Source: a virus
Strand: one strand, 5' to 3'
DNA length: 22,948 nt
Virus record (IMG/VR): IMGVR_UViG_3300030328_002384
Coordinates: 1-22,948 of that record
In this document: positions 6,456 through 22,183 of the stretch, piece after piece
Layout: each line of letters opens with the position of its first letter
Position numbering within the stretch: the stretch's first letter is position 1
Position numbers and translations under genes: made by a program
Notes under the pieces: model-generated
Seen by the model: the letters and a program-made list of their open reading frames with translations, nothing else
What the model was told of the DNA's origin: nothing
Database searches by the model: none

Positions 6456-6929
6456 TTACTTGTTTTTTTCTTGTTCGAGTAATGACAACCTAGCTGCAAT
6501 ACTTGCTTTAGGGTCTCCTGTAGCAACTATCTTTTCTAGTTGTTCCATCACATCTGTGGGTACTTCTGATTTAGAATTTGCATCAAGTGCAGCTACTCTA
6601 GCGCGAGCATCATCTTGGGCTACTGGTACTTCCTCAGTTTGTGGTATTTCTTGATTAATTCCACTAGCTTCAAAACCATATTCGTCTTTAGCAAACTGTG
6701 CGATAGCTTCTTTTTCGATTGGGCCATCATACACTTGTTTTAACGCCTTACCGAAACCTTTATCAGTCGTAAGTCCAATCTCTCCGAAGACAGAATCAAG
6801 CTCTTTTTGTTCATAAGAAGCTATCTTAGCTTCTGCAACTTTAAGCTCTTTGTCCTTACGCTCTATAGTTTCTCTCATTTGTTTTGCACCAGGTGATTCC
6901 TCTCCTGCTACATCAAATTCATTTTCCAT
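6456..6929 (-). CDS. Capsid scaffold-like protein
   Basis: This 157-residue, strongly charged protein (MENEFDVAGEESPGAKQMRETIERKDKELK) has an N-terminal helix or coiled-coil stretch at about residues 17-45, rich in Glu, Lys and Ala. An acidic, Pro-containing middle (SGINQEIPQTEEVPV) and a short basic end (EQEKNK) follow. Size, composition and place immediately before the major capsid gene are those of a phage scaffolding protein, which guides procapsid assembly and then leaves. It starts after a strong site, GGAGGTACGAAATG, and is the first coding sequence downstream of the structured leader. The last codons contain a run of seven A on the coding strand. No protease domain is seen. Confidence 0.7.
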   Translation of the reverse strand: MENEFDVAGEESPGAKQMRETIERKDKELKVAEAKIASYEQKELDSVFGEIGLTTDKGFGKALKQVYDGPIEKEAIAQFAKDEYGFEASGINQEIPQTEEVPVAQDDARARVAALDANSKSEVPTDVMEQLEKIVATGDPKASIAARLSLLEQEKNK

Positions 6930-6934
6930 TTCGT

Positions 6935-7122
6935 ACCTCCTCTATGTGTTTACCTAACAGACAAGACCATAGGCATCCTGCCGTGGTGCTACCTTACCAC
7001 TTGACTTATAATCTGGTAGCTTAAAGTTATAAGTCCATTACTCTACGTATTTAATACAAGCTTCCAACGTAGGCCTGAAAGCTGGTTTGATGGTCTATTT
7101 ACAGCGGACCTCTCAACGCATA
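6935..7122 (-). ncRNA. Structured leader RNA upstream of scaffold and capsid genes
   Basis: No open frame fills this gap. Read on the minus strand, AGACCAT (7096-7090) pairs with ATGGTCT (6970-6964), closing a domain of about 130 nt. Inside it lie three hairpins. The first is CCTACGT-type, ACGTAG (7072-7067) with CTACGT (7048-7043). The second is a 9-bp stem GACTTATAA/TTATAAGTC (7035-7027 with 7011-7003). The third is a 5-bp stem GTGGT/ACCAC (7000-6996 with 6987-6983). The loop of hairpin two contains GCTACC (7020-7015), and the loop of hairpin three contains its exact complement GGTAGC (6993-6988). This allows a loop-loop or pseudoknot contact. A TATAAT box lies just upstream and the scaffold gene's Shine-Dalgarno just downstream. 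It matches no riboswitch, tmRNA or tRNA pattern I know. Pairing is seen directly; function is unknown. Confidence 0.6.
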
Positions 7123-7127
7123 AAACT

Positions 7128-7133
7128 ATTATA
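7128..7133 (-). promoter_or_regulatory. -10 box (TATAAT) for the capsid transcript
   Basis: A perfect TATAAT lies on the minus strand, nine bases past the stop of the upstream gene. A start point near 7121 would make the structured leader the 5' end of a scaffold-capsid mRNA. No good -35 hexamer is present at 16-18 bp, so the box may need an activator or may be partly fortuitous in AT-rich DNA. Confidence 0.45.
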
Positions 7134-7141
7134 CACTAAAT

Positions 7142-8176
7142 CTATGTAAGACCAGTTACTTTGTCACCTTTTTTTCTAGAGCCAGTAACAAATGAACTTG
7201 CTGATATAGCTTCATTTGCGGCTTTTTGTACTGCAGACATAGCTTCTGTATTACCTATAGCTGCTTCAGCTAATGTATCTACATTAACATTTCTTCCTAA
7301 CCCAGCTGCTTGTGATATTATAGGTTCGGCATTGCTGTATATATTCTTAGCTGTTTCTCTTGTTAATCCTTGTTTTCTATATCTCTCAAATTTACTAAAT
7401 TCAAATGAATAACCTTTAGATGTAGCTTCTGCACCTATTTGTAATGTAGCAATATCATTATTAAGTATTGCATCTTGTATATCTGGATTTAATAATCCAG
7501 CTAATATAAGTTCTGGTGTGACACCTTCTATACCATGTTGTTGTGCATATAATTCAGCAACTTGAGGTATGTCATCAATTACTGCATCATATACTATATT
7601 AACACGTGTATCAAACTCTTCTGGACTAACTAAGTTAGTTATCATTGTTTCAAATTGTTTATCAAATGCTTCTGCATAAGGTATGCCAAACTCAGCTAAT
7701 GTATTTCTAAAAGATGCTTTATTAGACATAGCTTCTAATTCAGTCATAATTAGAGTTCCATCATCTCTAAGTAAGTAACCAAACATATCTTCATACATAG
7801 GTTCTTTTCTTAACATTCCAATTGCAATATCTTTATTACCATAAGTTACCCAAAACTCTGCATATTTATCAATGAATTTTTGAGGAAACATTGAGAATAA
7901 AGACTTAGCTAAAGCAGCTCCTGTACTTGAAGAACGTCCACTTGCTGTGTCAGAAACACCAGACATAGCTGAATCTACATCAGAATAAAAACTTACATCA
8001 TCTGTACCTGTATATATAGAGCCACCTTCTCCACTTCTTCCTGCCATTGCTTCACCAGGATTAGTTGTATAACCAGCTTTAGCTAGTTCTGCGGCTCTTT
8101 CTTCTGATACTTCATAATAGTTTTGTCCATCTGTTCCTTGACCATAACCTAAGTCGCTTCTATAAACTCTAACCAT
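7142..8176 (-). CDS. Virion-associated protein of unknown function (344 aa)
   Basis: Not recognised. The protein begins MVRVYRSDLGYGQGTDGQNYYEVSEERAAELAKAGY, a compact basic-aromatic start, then a Ser/Gly-rich linker (about residues 45-85). A long helical region follows, including QKFIDKYAEFWVTYGNKDIAIGMLRKEPMYEDMFGYLL. The Ala-rich end reads AAIGNTEAMSAVQKAANEAI and finishes in a Lys/Arg-rich tail (GSRKKGDKV). It overlaps the previous gene by eight bases (ATGGTTAG), so it is translationally coupled. Being the last gene of the giant-protein cluster and before the capsid unit, it could be an internal head or ejection protein, in the way short-tailed phages have three or four such genes. No catalytic motif or membrane segment is evident. 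Confidence 0.6.
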   Translation of the reverse strand: MVRVYRSDLGYGQGTDGQNYYEVSEERAAELAKAGYTTNPGEAMAGRSGEGGSIYTGTDDVSFYSDVDSAMSGVSDTASGRSSSTGAALAKSLFSMFPQKFIDKYAEFWVTYGNKDIAIGMLRKEPMYEDMFGYLLRDDGTLIMTELEAMSNKASFRNTLAEFGIPYAEAFDKQFETMITNLVSPEEFDTRVNIVYDAVIDDIPQVAELYAQQHGIEGVTPELILAGLLNPDIQDAILNNDIATLQIGAEATSKGYSFEFSKFERYRKQGLTRETAKNIYSNAEPIISQAAGLGRNVNVDTLAEAAIGNTEAMSAVQKAANEAISASSFVTGSRKKGDKVTGLT

Positions 8177-9401: not shown

Positions 9402-10639
9402 TATCTACTACCCTGTAACCATTTCATATATGTATATTCTGCATCTTGTATTTGTTGAGCTTCATCAGATAATGTTTGTTGTTGTTCAGCTCCTTCATCA
9501 ATCTCATCATATACTTCATCTACTGGGTTTTCTACATTAAATTCAGGTTTTAATCTATCAAATGTTACAAAACCACCATATTCTTCTCTAAGTCCTTGAC
9601 CTGTTCCTTCTCTTTTAAAATATGTTTGCATTACTTCACCAGCTCTAATAAATTTATCTTGAGCTACTAGAGCATCTACATAACCTGACCAATCTTGTGC
9701 AACAGAATTAATAAACTCTTCTTTTAGTTCATCAGTTAACGGTCTTTTATTTACTTGTTGATAATAATCTTCAAAATCTTCAGCTAATGTAGTCATATTA
9801 GGAAATATATTATCTGTTCTTATTTTTGTAGCAGCTTCTATATCCATAGTTCTTTTTGCTATATCTTCTTCAGCTTGTTTTTTATCTAAAAAACTTAATA
9901 ATCCATTAGCAAAAATTTCTTTACTTGTAATATATTTTGTACTTACAGGTTCTCCCTCTTTTATCTCTAGACCACCATAAAAACTATTTATATTAGGATA
10001 AAATTTAAAATCTAATTTACTTTCTTCTACAGTTTCTACAAATGCATTTCTATTTGGAGAATTAGGATACCATTCAGTATATTCATTATCTATATATTTT
10101 AAAGCTTCAGATATTAATGAATTAGTAATTATCCCACCAACACCATTAACTTCATTACCTAGTTCTTCTACGGTAATATATCCACTAGCTATTGCAGCAT
10201 CTTGTATTGCCATCAAAGCATTCTGGTCTGTATTTATTGTTTGAACAAAACTATCTGCAAAATTAGCTGCAGGAAAAAACTTACCTTCTCTAACAGTTTC
10301 TATTTGAGGTAAACCATCTTTAAATACTGGTTCACCAGCTTCATCTGTAACTTGTATTATTCTACTATCAGGACCAATATATCTCTGATTTCCAGATGAG
10401 TCTATGAACTCTCTACTTCCTGCTGGTACATAATTACTAAATGCTTTTAATATATTACTTTTAATTACATCCGAACTATTGTCACTTCCTAAGTGTAATA
10501 AAATTAATTCAAAATCATTTGCTCCTACATATTGAGAATAGTCATTATTAAGATTTTGAAATGTAAAGTTACTAAAAGAATCAGAAATCTTCTGTATCTC
10601 TCCTTCTAGTTCTTTTCTTTCAGCGTCTGTTAAAGCCAT
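9401..10639 (-). CDS. Virion-associated protein of unknown function (412 aa)
   Basis: Not recognised. It starts MALTDAERKELEGEIQKISDSF, a predicted helix, and is overall acidic and helical. A likely coiled segment lies near residues 255-300 (DKKQAEEDIAKRTMDIEAATKIR). A Glu/Gln-rich C-terminal part (EIDEGAEQQQTLSDEAQQIQDAEYTYMKW) follows. It has no signal peptide, membrane span or enzyme motif that I can see. The ATG shares a base with the stop of the 2011-codon gene (TAATG), which suggests expression at a fixed ratio to it by translational coupling. Such coupling fits proteins that assemble together, for example an internal core. Confidence 0.6.
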   Translation of the reverse strand: MALTDAERKELEGEIQKISDSFSNFTFQNLNNDYSQYVGANDFELILLHLGSDNSSDVIKSNILKAFSNYVPAGSREFIDSSGNQRYIGPDSRIIQVTDEAGEPVFKDGLPQIETVREGKFFPAANFADSFVQTINTDQNALMAIQDAAIASGYITVEELGNEVNGVGGIITNSLISEALKYIDNEYTEWYPNSPNRNAFVETVEESKLDFKFYPNINSFYGGLEIKEGEPVSTKYITSKEIFANGLLSFLDKKQAEEDIAKRTMDIEAATKIRTDNIFPNMTTLAEDFEDYYQQVNKRPLTDELKEEFINSVAQDWSGYVDALVAQDKFIRAGEVMQTYFKREGTGQGLREEYGGFVTFDRLKPEFNVENPVDEVYDEIDEGAEQQQTLSDEAQQIQDAEYTYMKWLQGSR

Positions 10640-13600
10640 TATCCTTCTCCAATAATAGGTGGTTCAGTAATTTGTGTACCAAAGTCTATTTTTTCTTTAT
10701 TTAATGCAGTATTATAGTTCATAAAACGAGAATCATTAGACATTAATCTAATTATAACGTTCATATACACAGGATAAAATTCTGGATACAATCCAATTGT
10801 GTAATAAGCAGCTTGTGCTACTTGTTTTCTTATAATTTGTGCATCTTCAGTTTTTGATGTTCTCCACCATTGAGTTGAATAACCTGCATCAACTGATATC
10901 TTTTCAGCTTCAGACCAAAAATTTTCATAAAAGTATTTAAAGCCTTGACCAGCTTCAGTACTTTGTGCAAATGTGTTTGTTCTCCAAACATCTCTCATTT
11001 CATTAAATCTAGTTATAGTACTTGGAGTTTCTGTTTGTCCGAATTCATTTCTATAACCTGGTTTTAAATCCATTAACGCTAAATTGAAAGCTTGAGACAT
11101 TAATTCTTTTTCTTTAGTAGATAAATTAGTATTTAACTCTAATTGTTCTTTAAAATTTTTAAACATTACATATCCAGAAGCATTATTAGCATTTGGAATA
11201 TAATCTCTAGGATTTAAAGTAGCTCTTTCTACTACATCTTGCCAATTTTGTTCTGCTAAAGGATTATCTGATTTTAAAAATTGTAAAGTATTTGGCATAG
11301 CTTTTAATTCATCTCTATTATTTTTTTGCCATTGTATTACTTTTGCATCAAAGCTAACACTGTCAGTACCTTTTTGTTTTTTAGTTTCTAAAATATATGA
11401 ATGATTAATACCAAATGTATTAAAAAAGTCTTTTCCTGCTGCTTGATAGTCTCCTGCATGTTTTTCAACTAACTTTTGATGTTCGTTTGCTAGAACACTT
11501 ACACCAAACCATTTTCCATTCTTATCTTCTAGTACTAATTCATACATAGCACCTGTTAAGAAACCGAATTGTGATGCTGCTCTAAATAAATTTAACCATC
11601 TTCCTTGATGTGCAGCGTATCTCATAATTGCTAAATCTAATACTGCAGGAGTAAGAACACCTTTTGGAACATCTATAGGTAAATTGTTATTATCAAGGTA
11701 TTGTCCAGCTAATGCATCAACACTTTCCTCAAAAATTTTCCTTTCACCATTCCAATCAACAAAGATATCTTTTATATACTTATCTAATTCACCAGATTCT
11801 AATAATTTAATTTCACTATGAGATTCTTTAACACCATCAAATACAGTAATTGTTGAATCTGCACGCATATTTTCTACCTTACTATCCATAGTAAATTTTT
11901 GTAATTCTAAATCATCATCTAACCATGTATCACTAAGTGTTTCTGTAATTAAATCTAATCCACCTTTACTTCCTTTAAGTGCAGCAGAAGTTTTTTGTAA
12001 CCAAGCGATATCTCCACCTTTTAGTGCATCCATAAAATTATCAGGTGGTGGGAATTCTCCAAAAAATTCTTCTGTAAGTTCTACAGATGCGGGTGTTTTA
12101 TCAAATAATAACTTAGCACCAAAAGCGACAATTGAATTTGTATTAGGAAAGCCTTGACTTGCTATCATGTTTACACCAGAAGAGAAACCTTTCATAATTG
12201 TTCTAAAAGTAGAATCTTCTCCGAATAAAAAGTTATTAAAAGAATTATTCATTGGCATAAGAAACATATCTTCACCAGTATTTTTATCTTTATGAAAGGA
12301 ACCTTGTCCTGAATAAGTATAGGTCCCACCTACAGCTCTATTAGCTTTAGCAACTAAACCAGCTTGTCTTATAAAATAAGGATTTTGTATTGATAGCTTT
12401 GACCACCTTTTTCCAAGTTCAAAAAATATTTCTGGGAAAGGAAATGCATTTCTAAATACTTCTGAAAATCTATGTCTTTCACTTGCATCATACAAAATAG
12501 ACTTCATTTCAGATAATGCATAAGAAGATGCTTCTTTACTCCAAATTTCAAAATCATCAATTTTTCCACTTGTTGTATTTTTAATGTCTTTTAATTTCTT
12601 AATTACTTTATTAGGTATAGCTGCTGTAACAGCTTCATCAATAAATTTTTGTTGGACTTTTGGTGTAAACATTTCAAAATGACTACTTAATCTTAACCAT
12701 CTATATTGTTTGAATGTTGTACTTCTATGTAACATTGCTAAAGGCTGTGTTAATAAAAATTCAAATTGTGCATCTAAAAAGTAATCATACTTTTCTAACA
12801 TTTCAGCATTTCTTTTTGTATCAGGTACATCAGGTATTAAAGCTTTACCAAAATCAAATAACTTATCTTCAGTTCCTGGAATAATTTCATCTATAAATTC
12901 TTTATACCCTTTTTTCATATTTAATTTTTTAATAGAACCGAAGTTCTCAAATAAATTATCATAAGAAGGTGCCAATTTAACTGTTTTTCCACTTGGAGTA
13001 TTCATAATTCCTGTCCAAATAGATTCTCTTAATTCATTACTACCTGAGAATGAGAATGAATTATCATACCAATGTGTTCCTGCTTTAGCACCAGAAGTAT
13101 ATTCACCCCAATGAACACCTACTTGAGTAGGCATACCTGTTCTAAATCTTATTTCACCTTCTTTTTCAGCTAAATAGTTAATAAACTTATCTGTATTCTT
13201 TCTTAAATTCCTATATGTATCTCCAGTATTATCTATTAAATCTTGTATTAATCTTGGAGCAGGAGGTAATTTTACTTTTACACCGTCTACAGAAATAATA
13301 CCATCAGGTGATTTAGCCCACTCCATCAAAGAATCAGACCATCCTAATCTTGCTACTACTCTTGTTATAGGGTCATTACGTAATTTAAGATGTTGAAATA
13401 TATATCCATCTAAAGCTTTAGGGTGGTCTGATGAAACAGGTACATAATTTATATCTGACTTGTTAATCATATTCCTAGTATTAAAACCTTGTCTATTTAT
13501 ATTAATTCCAAGAGCCTCATGATAAATTACACTCATTGTTATTTCATTTACATCTTCACCTGAGTTTATAATTTTTTCCATTACTTTTCTAATAGGCGCT

Positions 13601-16600
13601 CTTTTAGGTAATTGTCCATATGAATACATCCAATTAGTAAAATTGAATGGATGGTCAAAAATAGAATCTAAAGTAGGATGTACAAAAAATCCTATTTGTT
13701 CTTCAAGTAAAACTCTTTCTGTTAATGAAGGTTTTAGAATTGCTCTAGGTTTAAACCAGTTATTATTCCATTGGTCAAATGACCAAGTAAATATATCTTC
13801 TTCAATTTTTCTACTAGGAATTTTTAAACCTTTAAAAAATCCATCTTCTTTAATATTATCTTTAATCTTTTTTAAAGCTTGAGGTGTTATTACATCATCA
13901 ACTGTATCAGGTAAATCAGTAAATAATCTTCCTAATGTTCTTTGTAACATACGATTATTATTTAATGACGCACCGTTATCAGCTGCTTCAGATAATTTAG
14001 ATATAGTAGGAATAAATATAGTTTCTCCTGTTTCTGGATGTCTCATAGTTCCTGTCCATTCAGAGTTTAATTGTCTACCTAAAGGGTCTACAATATAATT
14101 TTTTAATTGAGTTTCAGAGTTATCTGCTAAGTCAATCCTTCTTTGTACTATTTGACTTCTTTTTTCTCCTTTACGTGCAGCTATTAATTTAACATCAGCT
14201 TTTTTCAATTTTCTTGCAAAATCATTAACTGTTTGTACAGTCCATTTTGGAATAGATTGAAATTCATCAATTAACATACCTGCTTCTTTTTCTGGGTAAC
14301 CAATATTACTTAAATGTCTAACGAGAGTAGTAAATGCTTTACCTCTATTAGCATACGATAAAGTATTATTAGGTTGTAATGAAAACCATTTTTTCCAAAA
14401 ATAACTCATACCATCTGTAAACTCATGAAAGAATCCCATATTTCTAGCTAAACTTGAATTACCTGTTTTATTCCATTGCCTAAATTCATCTTGAGATAAA
14501 GTTTTATTTATATTAGTTAATTCCATCTTCTTTTGAGGATTACGTAATTTTTTATAAGCTCGAGTAGGAAATCTAGCTACATTATCTAAATAATTTAATG
14601 CCTTGCTACCTCCTCTTCCTATTAAACTTCCAGCTGAAGGCATCATTATATTTTTACCAGTAAGTTTATTAACTCCAGTACTAAGTATTTTAGATTGTCT
14701 TAAAGGACTTTCCGTTAATTTGAATGGCATATCCATTCTTGGAAGTTTTACACCTGCATCACTATAAATTTTTGTAAATAATTTCTCCATTTCATCAATG
14801 TTTTTAATTCTTTTAATTTCTTTTTGAACTGCTTCTGGAAATTTACCTATAAAATTATCTGTTGCTATTTTGTAACTATTATCTAACTTTGTATATTTAT
14901 TTAAATTACCATTAAGTCTTAAGCTATTTGCAATTTTAGGACCAGTAGTATTAAAAATACCATTTGCCCTACCACCAAACAAACCATAATCTTTTTTGTA
15001 CTGAGCAGTTTGTCTTTTAGAACTCTTTATTTGTTTTTGTAATTCAGGAGAATATTTTTTATATTTTCTTATTGGAGTTGCATAATCAAATGTATTTAAA
15101 AACTCATCAATGTTATCTACAGATTTACCAGTTAAAGGATTAACTTTATTATTAGTAACATACTCACTAATCATTTCTCTTTTTTTAATATGACTATATA
15201 AAGAAGCATCATCTATGCTCTCAAGTTTATTTACATTCTTTGTTAAAAACTGTAGTTTTTTTGCAAATTTAATTCCTTTATTAAATATAATTTCAGGAAT
15301 TATTCTTTCTGAACCATCAATTAAACCTGATAGTTGATTGTATTCATTAGAACCTACATCATATAACAATGAGGCCTGGTATCTTCCAGAAGAATAAGGT
15401 ATTTGTATTCCTAATAACTCATTTTGATTACGTTGTCTAACTTGTTCATATTGCTCAGCTGCTTCAGGTGTATATATAAATTGCCTACCAGCAAATGCTT
15501 TTATTTCATTTGGATTAACCAAAGAGTTCCAATGTATTTCACCATCATTATTTCTACCTATTATTGCTCTTCCATTATCTTCATAGAATGCTTTTGCAGA
15601 TTCCTCAAAAGAAAATCCTTTTTGAACCATGTCTGCAACTATTGCACTATCTTCAGCAAACATACTTTCTCCTATTAATACATTATCCCTATTAAAATTT
15701 ACAGGTCTCCCAGAAACAACTTCTTCATGGATTTGTGCAATTACAGGTTTACCCGCTCTTTTTCTAGCTTCATTTGCATAACCTAACCATGCTTTTGTTT
15801 CTTCTATCCAATTACCTTCATAACCTAAATCAGTTACTTTTGTATCAGCAAAATCTATTGGTACATATTGTTGTGACCATTCTTTAGTTTTACCAGTTTC
15901 CATATATCTGTCTAATGCATTTAATTGTTGTGCATAGGCTAAGATTCTATTATTAAATAAAGCTCTATTACCAGGTACTAATAGATTTACTCCTGGTATA
16001 CCCATAGCTACCTTTTCTAAAGGATTTAAATTTTCAAACTCTTTACTTCCTGGAATCTTTACTAACTCATCTGTCTCTTTATCTCTTATTAATTGTGGTT
16101 TCTCAATTGAACTTCTATAACTAGGACTGTATCTTACAAATATATCTGACATCGCATTAAAAGTTTCTGCAATTAATACTCCTGTTTGTGTTTTCCCAAG
16201 AATAGGTGCAGATGGTGTAAAGTCAATAACACCTATTGGTGTTTCTACTTCACCACCTTTATCAACATAATTACTACCCCAAATTAATTTATTAACTCCC
16301 CAAAGTGCTGATGAAAATCCTCCGAATGTCAGAACATCTATATAGTTAAAAGTCATATTGTCAGCAAAATCTTTTGTTTGATATTCTTTTTTAGATTCTT
16401 CATAAGCATTCGCAACCTGTATTGATTGTTGTTCTATATAATTATCATTTAAATCTACAATAGATTGTGAATCTATAGGAAGTTCTTCATCACTAAACTG
16501 TGCAAGATTCATTGTAATTTCTACAGGTAAATTACTAAACATTTCATTAATAGCTTCAAATCTATTTAAAAATCTAGGATTTTGGTCTATTAAATCATTA

Positions 16601-16674
16601 ACTTCTTTTAGTCGCATCTGCTCTATACGAGCTAGTTTAGCTATAGCTGCTTGTTCTAAATAATTACTACTCAT
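10639..16674 (-). CDS. Giant virion protein (2011 aa), candidate internal or ejection protein
   Basis: This single uninterrupted frame takes up more than a quarter of the window. It begins MSSNYLEQAAIAKLARIEQMRLKEVNDL, a helical start. A hydrophobic stretch at about residues 108-133 (TFNYIDVLTFGGFSSALWGVNKLIWG) could insert in a membrane. Residues 530-760 are rich in Lys and Arg. Around residue 1415 comes NAFPFPEIFFELGKRWSKL, a type of segment I associate with large internal proteins of marine phages. No lysozyme, transglycosylase, protease or polymerase motif was recognised. The start lies three bases after the previous stop without a good Shine-Dalgarno, implying coupling. In T7-like phages the comparable role is played by gp15/gp16, which build a conduit for DNA entry. 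The equation is by size and neighbourhood only. A virion RNA polymerase was considered but no motif supports it. Confidence 0.75.
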   Translation of the reverse strand: MSSNYLEQAAIAKLARIEQMRLKEVNDLIDQNPRFLNRFEAINEMFSNLPVEITMNLAQFSDEELPIDSQSIVDLNDNYIEQQSIQVANAYEESKKEYQTKDFADNMTFNYIDVLTFGGFSSALWGVNKLIWGSNYVDKGGEVETPIGVIDFTPSAPILGKTQTGVLIAETFNAMSDIFVRYSPSYRSSIEKPQLIRDKETDELVKIPGSKEFENLNPLEKVAMGIPGVNLLVPGNRALFNNRILAYAQQLNALDRYMETGKTKEWSQQYVPIDFADTKVTDLGYEGNWIEETKAWLGYANEARKRAGKPVIAQIHEEVVSGRPVNFNRDNVLIGESMFAEDSAIVADMVQKGFSFEESAKAFYEDNGRAIIGRNNDGEIHWNSLVNPNEIKAFAGRQFIYTPEAAEQYEQVRQRNQNELLGIQIPYSSGRYQASLLYDVGSNEYNQLSGLIDGSERIIPEIIFNKGIKFAKKLQFLTKNVNKLESIDDASLYSHIKKREMISEYVTNNKVNPLTGKSVDNIDEFLNTFDYATPIRKYKKYSPELQKQIKSSKRQTAQYKKDYGLFGGRANGIFNTTGPKIANSLRLNGNLNKYTKLDNSYKIATDNFIGKFPEAVQKEIKRIKNIDEMEKLFTKIYSDAGVKLPRMDMPFKLTESPLRQSKILSTGVNKLTGKNIMMPSAGSLIGRGGSKALNYLDNVARFPTRAYKKLRNPQKKMELTNINKTLSQDEFRQWNKTGNSSLARNMGFFHEFTDGMSYFWKKWFSLQPNNTLSYANRGKAFTTLVRHLSNIGYPEKEAGMLIDEFQSIPKWTVQTVNDFARKLKKADVKLIAARKGEKRSQIVQRRIDLADNSETQLKNYIVDPLGRQLNSEWTGTMRHPETGETIFIPTISKLSEAADNGASLNNNRMLQRTLGRLFTDLPDTVDDVITPQALKKIKDNIKEDGFFKGLKIPSRKIEEDIFTWSFDQWNNNWFKPRAILKPSLTERVLLEEQIGFFVHPTLDSIFDHPFNFTNWMYSYGQLPKRAPIRKVMEKIINSGEDVNEITMSVIYHEALGININRQGFNTRNMINKSDINYVPVSSDHPKALDGYIFQHLKLRNDPITRVVARLGWSDSLMEWAKSPDGIISVDGVKVKLPPAPRLIQDLIDNTGDTYRNLRKNTDKFINYLAEKEGEIRFRTGMPTQVGVHWGEYTSGAKAGTHWYDNSFSFSGSNELRESIWTGIMNTPSGKTVKLAPSYDNLFENFGSIKKLNMKKGYKEFIDEIIPGTEDKLFDFGKALIPDVPDTKRNAEMLEKYDYFLDAQFEFLLTQPLAMLHRSTTFKQYRWLRLSSHFEMFTPKVQQKFIDEAVTAAIPNKVIKKLKDIKNTTSGKIDDFEIWSKEASSYALSEMKSILYDASERHRFSEVFRNAFPFPEIFFELGKRWSKLSIQNPYFIRQAGLVAKANRAVGGTYTYSGQGSFHKDKNTGEDMFLMPMNNSFNNFLFGEDSTFRTIMKGFSSGVNMIASQGFPNTNSIVAFGAKLLFDKTPASVELTEEFFGEFPPPDNFMDALKGGDIAWLQKTSAALKGSKGGLDLITETLSDTWLDDDLELQKFTMDSKVENMRADSTITVFDGVKESHSEIKLLESGELDKYIKDIFVDWNGERKIFEESVDALAGQYLDNNNLPIDVPKGVLTPAVLDLAIMRYAAHQGRWLNLFRAASQFGFLTGAMYELVLEDKNGKWFGVSVLANEHQKLVEKHAGDYQAAGKDFFNTFGINHSYILETKKQKGTDSVSFDAKVIQWQKNNRDELKAMPNTLQFLKSDNPLAEQNWQDVVERATLNPRDYIPNANNASGYVMFKNFKEQLELNTNLSTKEKELMSQAFNLALMDLKPGYRNEFGQTETPSTITRFNEMRDVWRTNTFAQSTEAGQGFKYFYENFWSEAEKISVDAGYSTQWWRTSKTEDAQIIRKQVAQAAYYTIGLYPEFYPVYMNVIIRLMSNDSRFMNYNTALNKEKIDFGTQITEPPIIGEG

Positions 16675-22112: not shown

Positions 22113-22115
22113 AAA

Positions 22116-22183
22116 GACTGTCTATATAAATATATATTCTATATGGAAGAATATATATTTATATCTACGACAGTCGTGGATAT
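22116..22183 (+). promoter_or_regulatory. Long hairpin with a competing alternative hairpin
   Basis: One fold pairs GACTGTC (22116-22122) with GACAGTC (22169-22175) and the 15-mer arms 22125-22139 with 22149-22163. The other pairs ATATCTACGA (22161-22170) with TCGTGGATAT (22174-22183), using one G-T pair and a CAG loop. Bases 22161-22170 belong to both, so the two cannot form fully together. This is the layout of an attenuator-like switch before the 110-residue gene. No T-run follows. Confidence 0.55.

Follow-up and report, generated by a model that had tools for sequence, protein, structure and literature searches.

The mRNA leader ahead of the scaffold and capsid genes in the window (the whole 22,948-nt stretch of viral DNA analysed here) folds into four H-type pseudoknots in series, PK0–PK3 (nt 7119–6942, minus strand). 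The fold is conserved across a large set of related phage sequences, acts on the RNA strand of the capsid operon, and has a fixed place between a promoter and the start of the scaffold gene. A functional structured RNA at this position had been proposed in a first-pass annotation of the window, and the present results support that proposal while replacing most of the fold that had been drawn for it. The anatomy of the leader, a chain of pseudoknots, is near certain. As to function, about an even chance is given to its being a cis-acting 5' leader of the scaffold-capsid mRNA that would protect the message and set its translation.

Locus and gene context

The leader lies in a 212-nt non-coding gap on the minus strand, between the stop of a 344-aa gene (nt 7142) and the start of a 157-aa gene (nt 6929); the coordinates of its elements are given in Table 1. 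The 157-aa product is acidic and all-helical, with a predicted long N-terminal helix (13–50; pLDDT 69, moderate confidence), and its sole match is PHROG 7813, a family of unknown function. In Bernal13, the nearest cultured relative by capsid protein, the position in front of the homologous capsid gene is taken by a gene annotated as scaffolding, and the gap at the matching place is just 68 nt. By gene position, the 157-aa protein is a well-supported candidate scaffold.

Table 1. Elements of the leader and flanking genes in the window (position 1 is the first nucleotide of the window)
Feature	Position	Strand	Sequence or remarks
-10 box	7133-7128	minus	TATAAT
PK0	7089..7119	minus	
PK0 stem a	7119-7117 / 7106-7104	minus	GCG / CGC
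PK0 stem b	7114-7107 / 7095-7089	minus	GA..GGTC / GACC.TC
PK1	7043..7083	minus	
PK1 stem 1	7083-7077 / 7065-7059	minus	AGCTTTC / GGAAGCT
PK1 stem 2	7072-7067 / 7048-7043	minus	CTACGT / ACGTAG
PK2	6988..7035	minus	Known from clade A
PK2 stem 1	7035-7027 / 7011-7003	minus	GACTTATAA / TTATAAGTC
PK2 stem 2	7020-7015 / 6993-6988	minus	GCTACC / GGTAGC
PK3	6942..6982	minus	
PK3 stem 1	6982-6976 / 6966-6960	minus	GGCAGGA / TCTTGTC
PK3 stem 2	6972-6968 / 6946-6942	minus	CTATG / CATAG
Shine-Dalgarno of scaffold gene	6940-6935	minus	GGAGGT; identical in all 30 aligned clade A relatives
Scaffold-like gene, 157 aa	6456..6929	minus	Directly upstream of capsid gene
Major capsid protein, 375 aa	5295..6422	minus	Pfam SU10_MCP, E 5e-40; PHROG 1328, major head protein

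Fold of the leader

The alignment of clade A, the group of relatives that includes the window (see below), displays four successive a-b-a'-b' patterns, each of which is a classical H-type pseudoknot. In the window the chain begins 8 nt past the -10 box and stops 1 nt short of the Shine-Dalgarno sequence. The TATAAT and GGAGGT that had been reported to begin and end the region were both found, on the minus strand. The exact complements GCTACC and GGTAGC are likewise present on that strand, but they form stem 2 of PK2 instead of the loop-loop kissing contact envisaged earlier, and in place of three local hairpins the conserved fold has four pseudoknots in a row. A 7-bp long-range closing stem had also been proposed. 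Its complementary segments exist (AGACCAT, nt 7096–7090; ATGGTCT, nt 6970–6964) but their pairing is not conserved: only 74.3% of cells are paired, there is no covariation, and 424 of 500 shuffles reach its score. Such a stem would, moreover, break PK0 and PK3.

Support varies from knot to knot. Covariation in PK0 is modest in clade A, where two changed pairs are seen in stem a and the fourth pair of that stem is often not formed, and is strong in clades B and C. Stem 2 of PK1 changes from A-U to G-C in 7 of 30 clade A relatives. Stem 1 of the same knot is almost invariant in clade A and shows no doubly changed pair in either A or B; both of its sides are replaced in B and C, and its support comes mainly from this replacement between clades. 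In PK2, all cells of stem 2 are paired (100%, with 3 doubly changed pairs) and stem 1 has 3–4 doubly changed pairs. PK3 is also paired in 100% of cells, with 5 doubly changed pairs in stem 1 and 3 in stem 2, the latter stem being nearly invariant in clade C. Overall, each knot keeps its two stems paired in clades A, B and C alike, and almost every stem covaries in at least one clade. A separate feature is seen in the loops of PK1, where columns 55 and 66 of the clade A alignment change together (AA, GT, CT) in mostly non-complementary combinations, reflecting either a tertiary contact or a lineage effect.

Relatives and clades

A scan of IMG/VR with the capsid protein of the window gave 80 loci at 70–96% identity, and three more scans, with capsid proteins of other clades as queries, enlarged the leader set. 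The result was 139 distinct related leaders from marine metagenomes, of which 57 (including the window) belong to clade A, 38 to clade B and 40 to clade C, the remainder being a mosaic pair (L210 and L224) and two outliers (L196 and L227). Two more loci belong to a metagenome-assembled genome assigned to Actinomycetota (isolate RS345, about 1.1 Mb), which hints at a streamlined marine actinobacterium as host, a binning error being possible.

Clades B and C retain PK0, PK1 and PK3 with different sequences. Stem a of PK0 is GCG/CGC in clade A; CCCTG/TGGGG, TTTTG/CGAAA or CTGCG/TGCAG in clade B; and GTGCC/GGCAC or GTACC/GGTAC in clade C. Stem 1 of PK1 is AGCTTTC/GAAAGCT in A, GGTCTTG/CAAGACC in B and GATAGG/CCTATT in L224, while in C it is an 8-bp stem of freely varying sequence. 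The two mosaics have an A-like PK0, a PK1 in which an A-like stem 2 is combined with a new stem 1, and a C-like PK3, and they do not have PK2; the knots seem to be exchangeable modules. The two outliers represent two additional leader types, for which three or four knots are predicted and which show no clear sequence similarity to any of the three clades. They may contain a PK2-like knot, and are too few in sequence number for a covariation test. Conservation is higher in the leader than in the scaffold gene in each clade (A, 0.863 vs 0.730; B, 0.806 vs 0.737; C, 0.798 vs 0.729). Across the group the knot architecture persists although its sequence is replaced, a pattern that indicates selection on the fold.

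The same turnover bears on whether the leader could be a riboswitch or ion sensor, in which binding of a ligand to the knots would switch capsid expression. Pseudoknots are common in riboswitches and parts of each clade are invariant, but no core sequence, and hence no pocket, is shared by clades A, B and C, and the leader contains neither a conserved anti-Shine-Dalgarno strand nor a terminator. This reading is considered very unlikely.

Statistical support for the fold

A conventional nested fold of the leader (-51.8 kcal/mol) is not significant (z = -0.82; 39 of 200 shuffles equally or more stable) because a nested model cannot represent the knots. With a pseudoknot-aware score, the leader of the window has z = -4.3, a value reached by none of 60 shuffles, and in a scan of 912 windows on both strands it was the best-scoring of all. 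Of three long phage records, two likewise have the leader as their top-scoring segment, and each record contains a single occurrence of the clade motif. The underlying search is alignment-free, and finds in single sequences the best chain of H-type pseudoknots using Turner stacks and a fixed penalty. It recovered four knots in the window, L024 and L018, three in clade B and L210, and three or four in L196 and L227. Outside clade C the z values range from -3.6 to -6.9, with 0 of 60 shuffles as good; clade C gives just -1.4 to -1.9, which is not significant and, together with the small number of column pairs that pass the pairwise test below, counts against the leader model.

Covariation among homologues, whose absence the first-pass annotation had named as a refutation, was found. 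In the tree-aware null model used, each column's substitutions are placed independently on the clade tree, with 400 simulations per test. Cells paired and doubly changed pairs both exceeded expectation in clade A (50 bp: 98.2% vs 87.9 +- 1.9% paired; 20 vs 5.8 doubly changed), clade B (36 bp: 96.9% vs 85.9%; 13 vs 5.4) and clade C (32 bp: 96.4% vs 80.3%; 17 vs 6.05). None of the 400 simulations matched the observed helices in any of the three clades, sliding the 3' partners by 1–3 columns lowered pairing to 30–48%, and the enlarged clade B and C sets had the same outcome. In a separate count of 30 distinct clade A sequences, 97.4% of cells were paired with 19 doubly changed pairs, compared to 8.9 in shuffles (0 of 500 as good) and 3–6 with slid partners. 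A strict all-against-all column test passed one loop pair in A (columns 55–66), one stem pair in C, and four stem pairs plus one non-stem pair in B; it has low power because the sequences are closely related, and the helix-level tree-aware test was used in its place.

Across all stems, read on the coding strand, there are 226 G-U cells and 28 A-C cells. Since G-U pairs work solely in RNA of the coding strand, the fold must operate in the capsid operon's RNA transcript and not in DNA. The G-U excess, the tree-aware tests and the pseudoknot-aware z together refute the idea that the complementarity is due to chance, or that the element works at the level of DNA as protein sites or cruciforms; the unremarkable nested fold, taken alone, would have favoured that idea, which is now extremely improbable.

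Position relative to the promoter and start codon

A -10 box is found at the matching place in nearly every relative. Its distance to the first nucleotide of PK0 is 6–8 nt in clade A, 7–11 nt in clade B and 7 nt in 35 of 35 members of clade C, and from this spacing transcription is predicted to start at or beside the first PK0 nucleotide. Many members of clade C also have a TTGAC -35 element, and clade B has an extended -10.

Scanning every IMG/VR contig for exact motifs yielded 170 distinct occurrences. A scaffold gene follows in 160, six are too near a contig end, and four (L096, L296, L297 and L363) are chance matches within unrelated coding sequence, so that the element is upstream of a scaffold gene in 160 of 160 genuine occurrences with room to check. 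A leader peptide was also considered and set aside: a three-codon frame, MDL, occurs in 45 of 56 clade A leaders, but the other 11 lack it or carry an altered version, so it is not general.

The element is compact, highly conserved and located beside the capsid genes, as might be expected of a separate structural or packaging RNA similar to the prohead RNA of phi29, either released from the mRNA by cleavage or terminated ahead of the scaffold gene. An RNA with its own role in assembly or packaging had been among the earlier suggestions. It is disfavoured, and appears highly improbable, as no terminator was found inside the leader before the scaffold start codon, PK3 of the window ends a single nucleotide before the Shine-Dalgarno sequence, and every genuine copy that could be checked continues into a scaffold gene.

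At the downstream end, PK3 stops 11–13 nt from the start codon in clade A and 17–22 nt from it in B and C. The Shine-Dalgarno sequence is strong and not visibly sequestered, its complements being weak, G-U-rich and without a shared place across the clades. These two features would suit a knot that promotes initiation by contact with the 30S platform or with a ribosomal protein, even while host translation is failing. Against such ribosome recruitment, the strong Shine-Dalgarno of clade A should suffice alone, and the clades have no common sequence for one ribosomal site to read; it is regarded as rather improbable.

Proposed function in the capsid mRNA

Under the cis-acting leader model, transcription from the promoter just upstream would begin at the first strand of PK0 or no more than a few nucleotides from it. 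The RNA would then fold into three or four H-type pseudoknots that lead up to the scaffold gene's Shine-Dalgarno and start codon. The knotted 5' end, with few free nucleotides, would slow 5'-end-dependent decay by RppH, RNase E or RNase J, the host and its RNases being presumed. The last knot may hold the ribosome-binding site open beside a rigid structure, with a probable effect on translation. The product would be a long-lived, efficiently translated mRNA for the capsid genes, which are needed in largest amounts late in infection. Both RppH and RNase E require single-stranded 5' ends, and 5' structure stabilises mRNA (reviewed in PMC3997798). Counting against the protection reading, the conservation of the knots exceeds the need of a mere steric block. 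A single 5' hairpin is, furthermore, usually enough for mRNA stability, while three or four knots are kept here.

The main rival is an autoregulatory operator, in which free scaffold (or capsid) protein would bind the knots and shut off its own translation, tying capsid synthesis to assembly. It is viewed as possible but doubtful. The type of leader equals the type of scaffold in 137 of 139 nearest neighbours, also when close relatives are left out, and the two mismatches are the two single-member types, which pair with each other. Capsid proteins up to 97% identical, by comparison, lie behind different leader types, and T4 gene 32 provides a precedent for such control (PMC3014915). However, the upstream gene is equally tightly linked to the leader type (135 of 137), so that plain linkage can explain the match between leader and scaffold. 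The scaffold is also acidic (net charge -8 to -12), and no RNA-binding domain was found in it. A related and unlikely proposal is a sensor of capsid assembly, in which modular knots, gained, lost and swapped between phages, would be read by free scaffold or capsid protein and would throttle translation according to the amount of unassembled protein.

A number of loci (L050, L068, L081, L158 and others) carry capsid proteins that are 96–97% identical behind unrelated types of leader and scaffold, a sign that recombination often occurs between the scaffold gene and the capsid gene.

Comparison with known systems

The leader matches no Rfam 15 family, and the first-pass annotation had likewise recognised none: covariance models gave nothing near the gathering score for the window, L024 (clade A), L064 (B), L050 (C) or L196, and matches at relaxed thresholds were chance only. 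A search of 50,697 phage records with the leaders produced no match for clades A and C; the single match of clade B to a cultured phage lies inside a replication region and is due to chance. In the open-access literature, to which the search was confined (subscription journals being outside its scope), no description was found of a row of pseudoknots filling a phage mRNA leader.

The gene 32 leader of T2, T4 and RB69 likewise has an H-type pseudoknot upstream of the ribosome-binding site (PMC3014915). There, a single knot located 67 nt ahead of the start codon nucleates gp32 on an A+U-rich tract; the leader of the marine phages differs in being taken up by three or four knots and in preceding a gene for a capsid scaffold. 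According to a 2010 review, T4 gene 32 was possibly the only viral pseudoknot in translational autoregulation (PMC3014915). Several H-type pseudoknots in a row also occur in tmRNA, up to four in E. coli, with some lineages losing one (PMC1168896). Unlike the leader, tmRNA stands alone as an RNA molecule, carrying a tRNA-like end and a reading frame for the tag, and ARAGORN found no tmRNA, i.e. no tRNA-like domain and tag frame, in the window; the pseudoknot chain common to the two is shared architecture, not homology. Tandem pseudoknots are present in a viral 5' untranslated region in foot-and-mouth disease virus (PMC10231256). That is an animal RNA virus with knots far from the start codon, and no relationship is implied. 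In the leader of T7 gene 10 (major capsid), a strong promoter leads into a capsid gene and 5' structure raises mRNA stability and expression. That leader has a simple hairpin and an A/U-rich enhancer, and is not known to contain a pseudoknot chain. Pseudoknots in phage leaders and pseudoknot chains elsewhere are each known; their combination appears to be new.

The chain is conserved in a large and widespread group of uncultured marine phages, and offers a compact natural system for studying how pseudoknots protect mRNA or control initiation, as well as the way in which phages adjust the amounts of their capsid proteins. It also illustrates how pseudoknot-rich RNAs escape nested-fold scoring and Rfam-style searches: by the nested test alone (z about -0.8), this leader region would have been dismissed.

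Other features of the window

Nucleotides 1–1863 encode a tail-fibre-like protein with repeated segments, e.g. GTLPTTNGGTG and GDGLDLSGTTFSTDL. A 2011-aa protein without a Pfam match is encoded between the portal and capsid genes (nt 10639–16674). A short A/T-rich hairpin-forming stretch at nt 22113–22178, with weak matches to microRNA models on both strands, is probably a simple palindrome between early genes.
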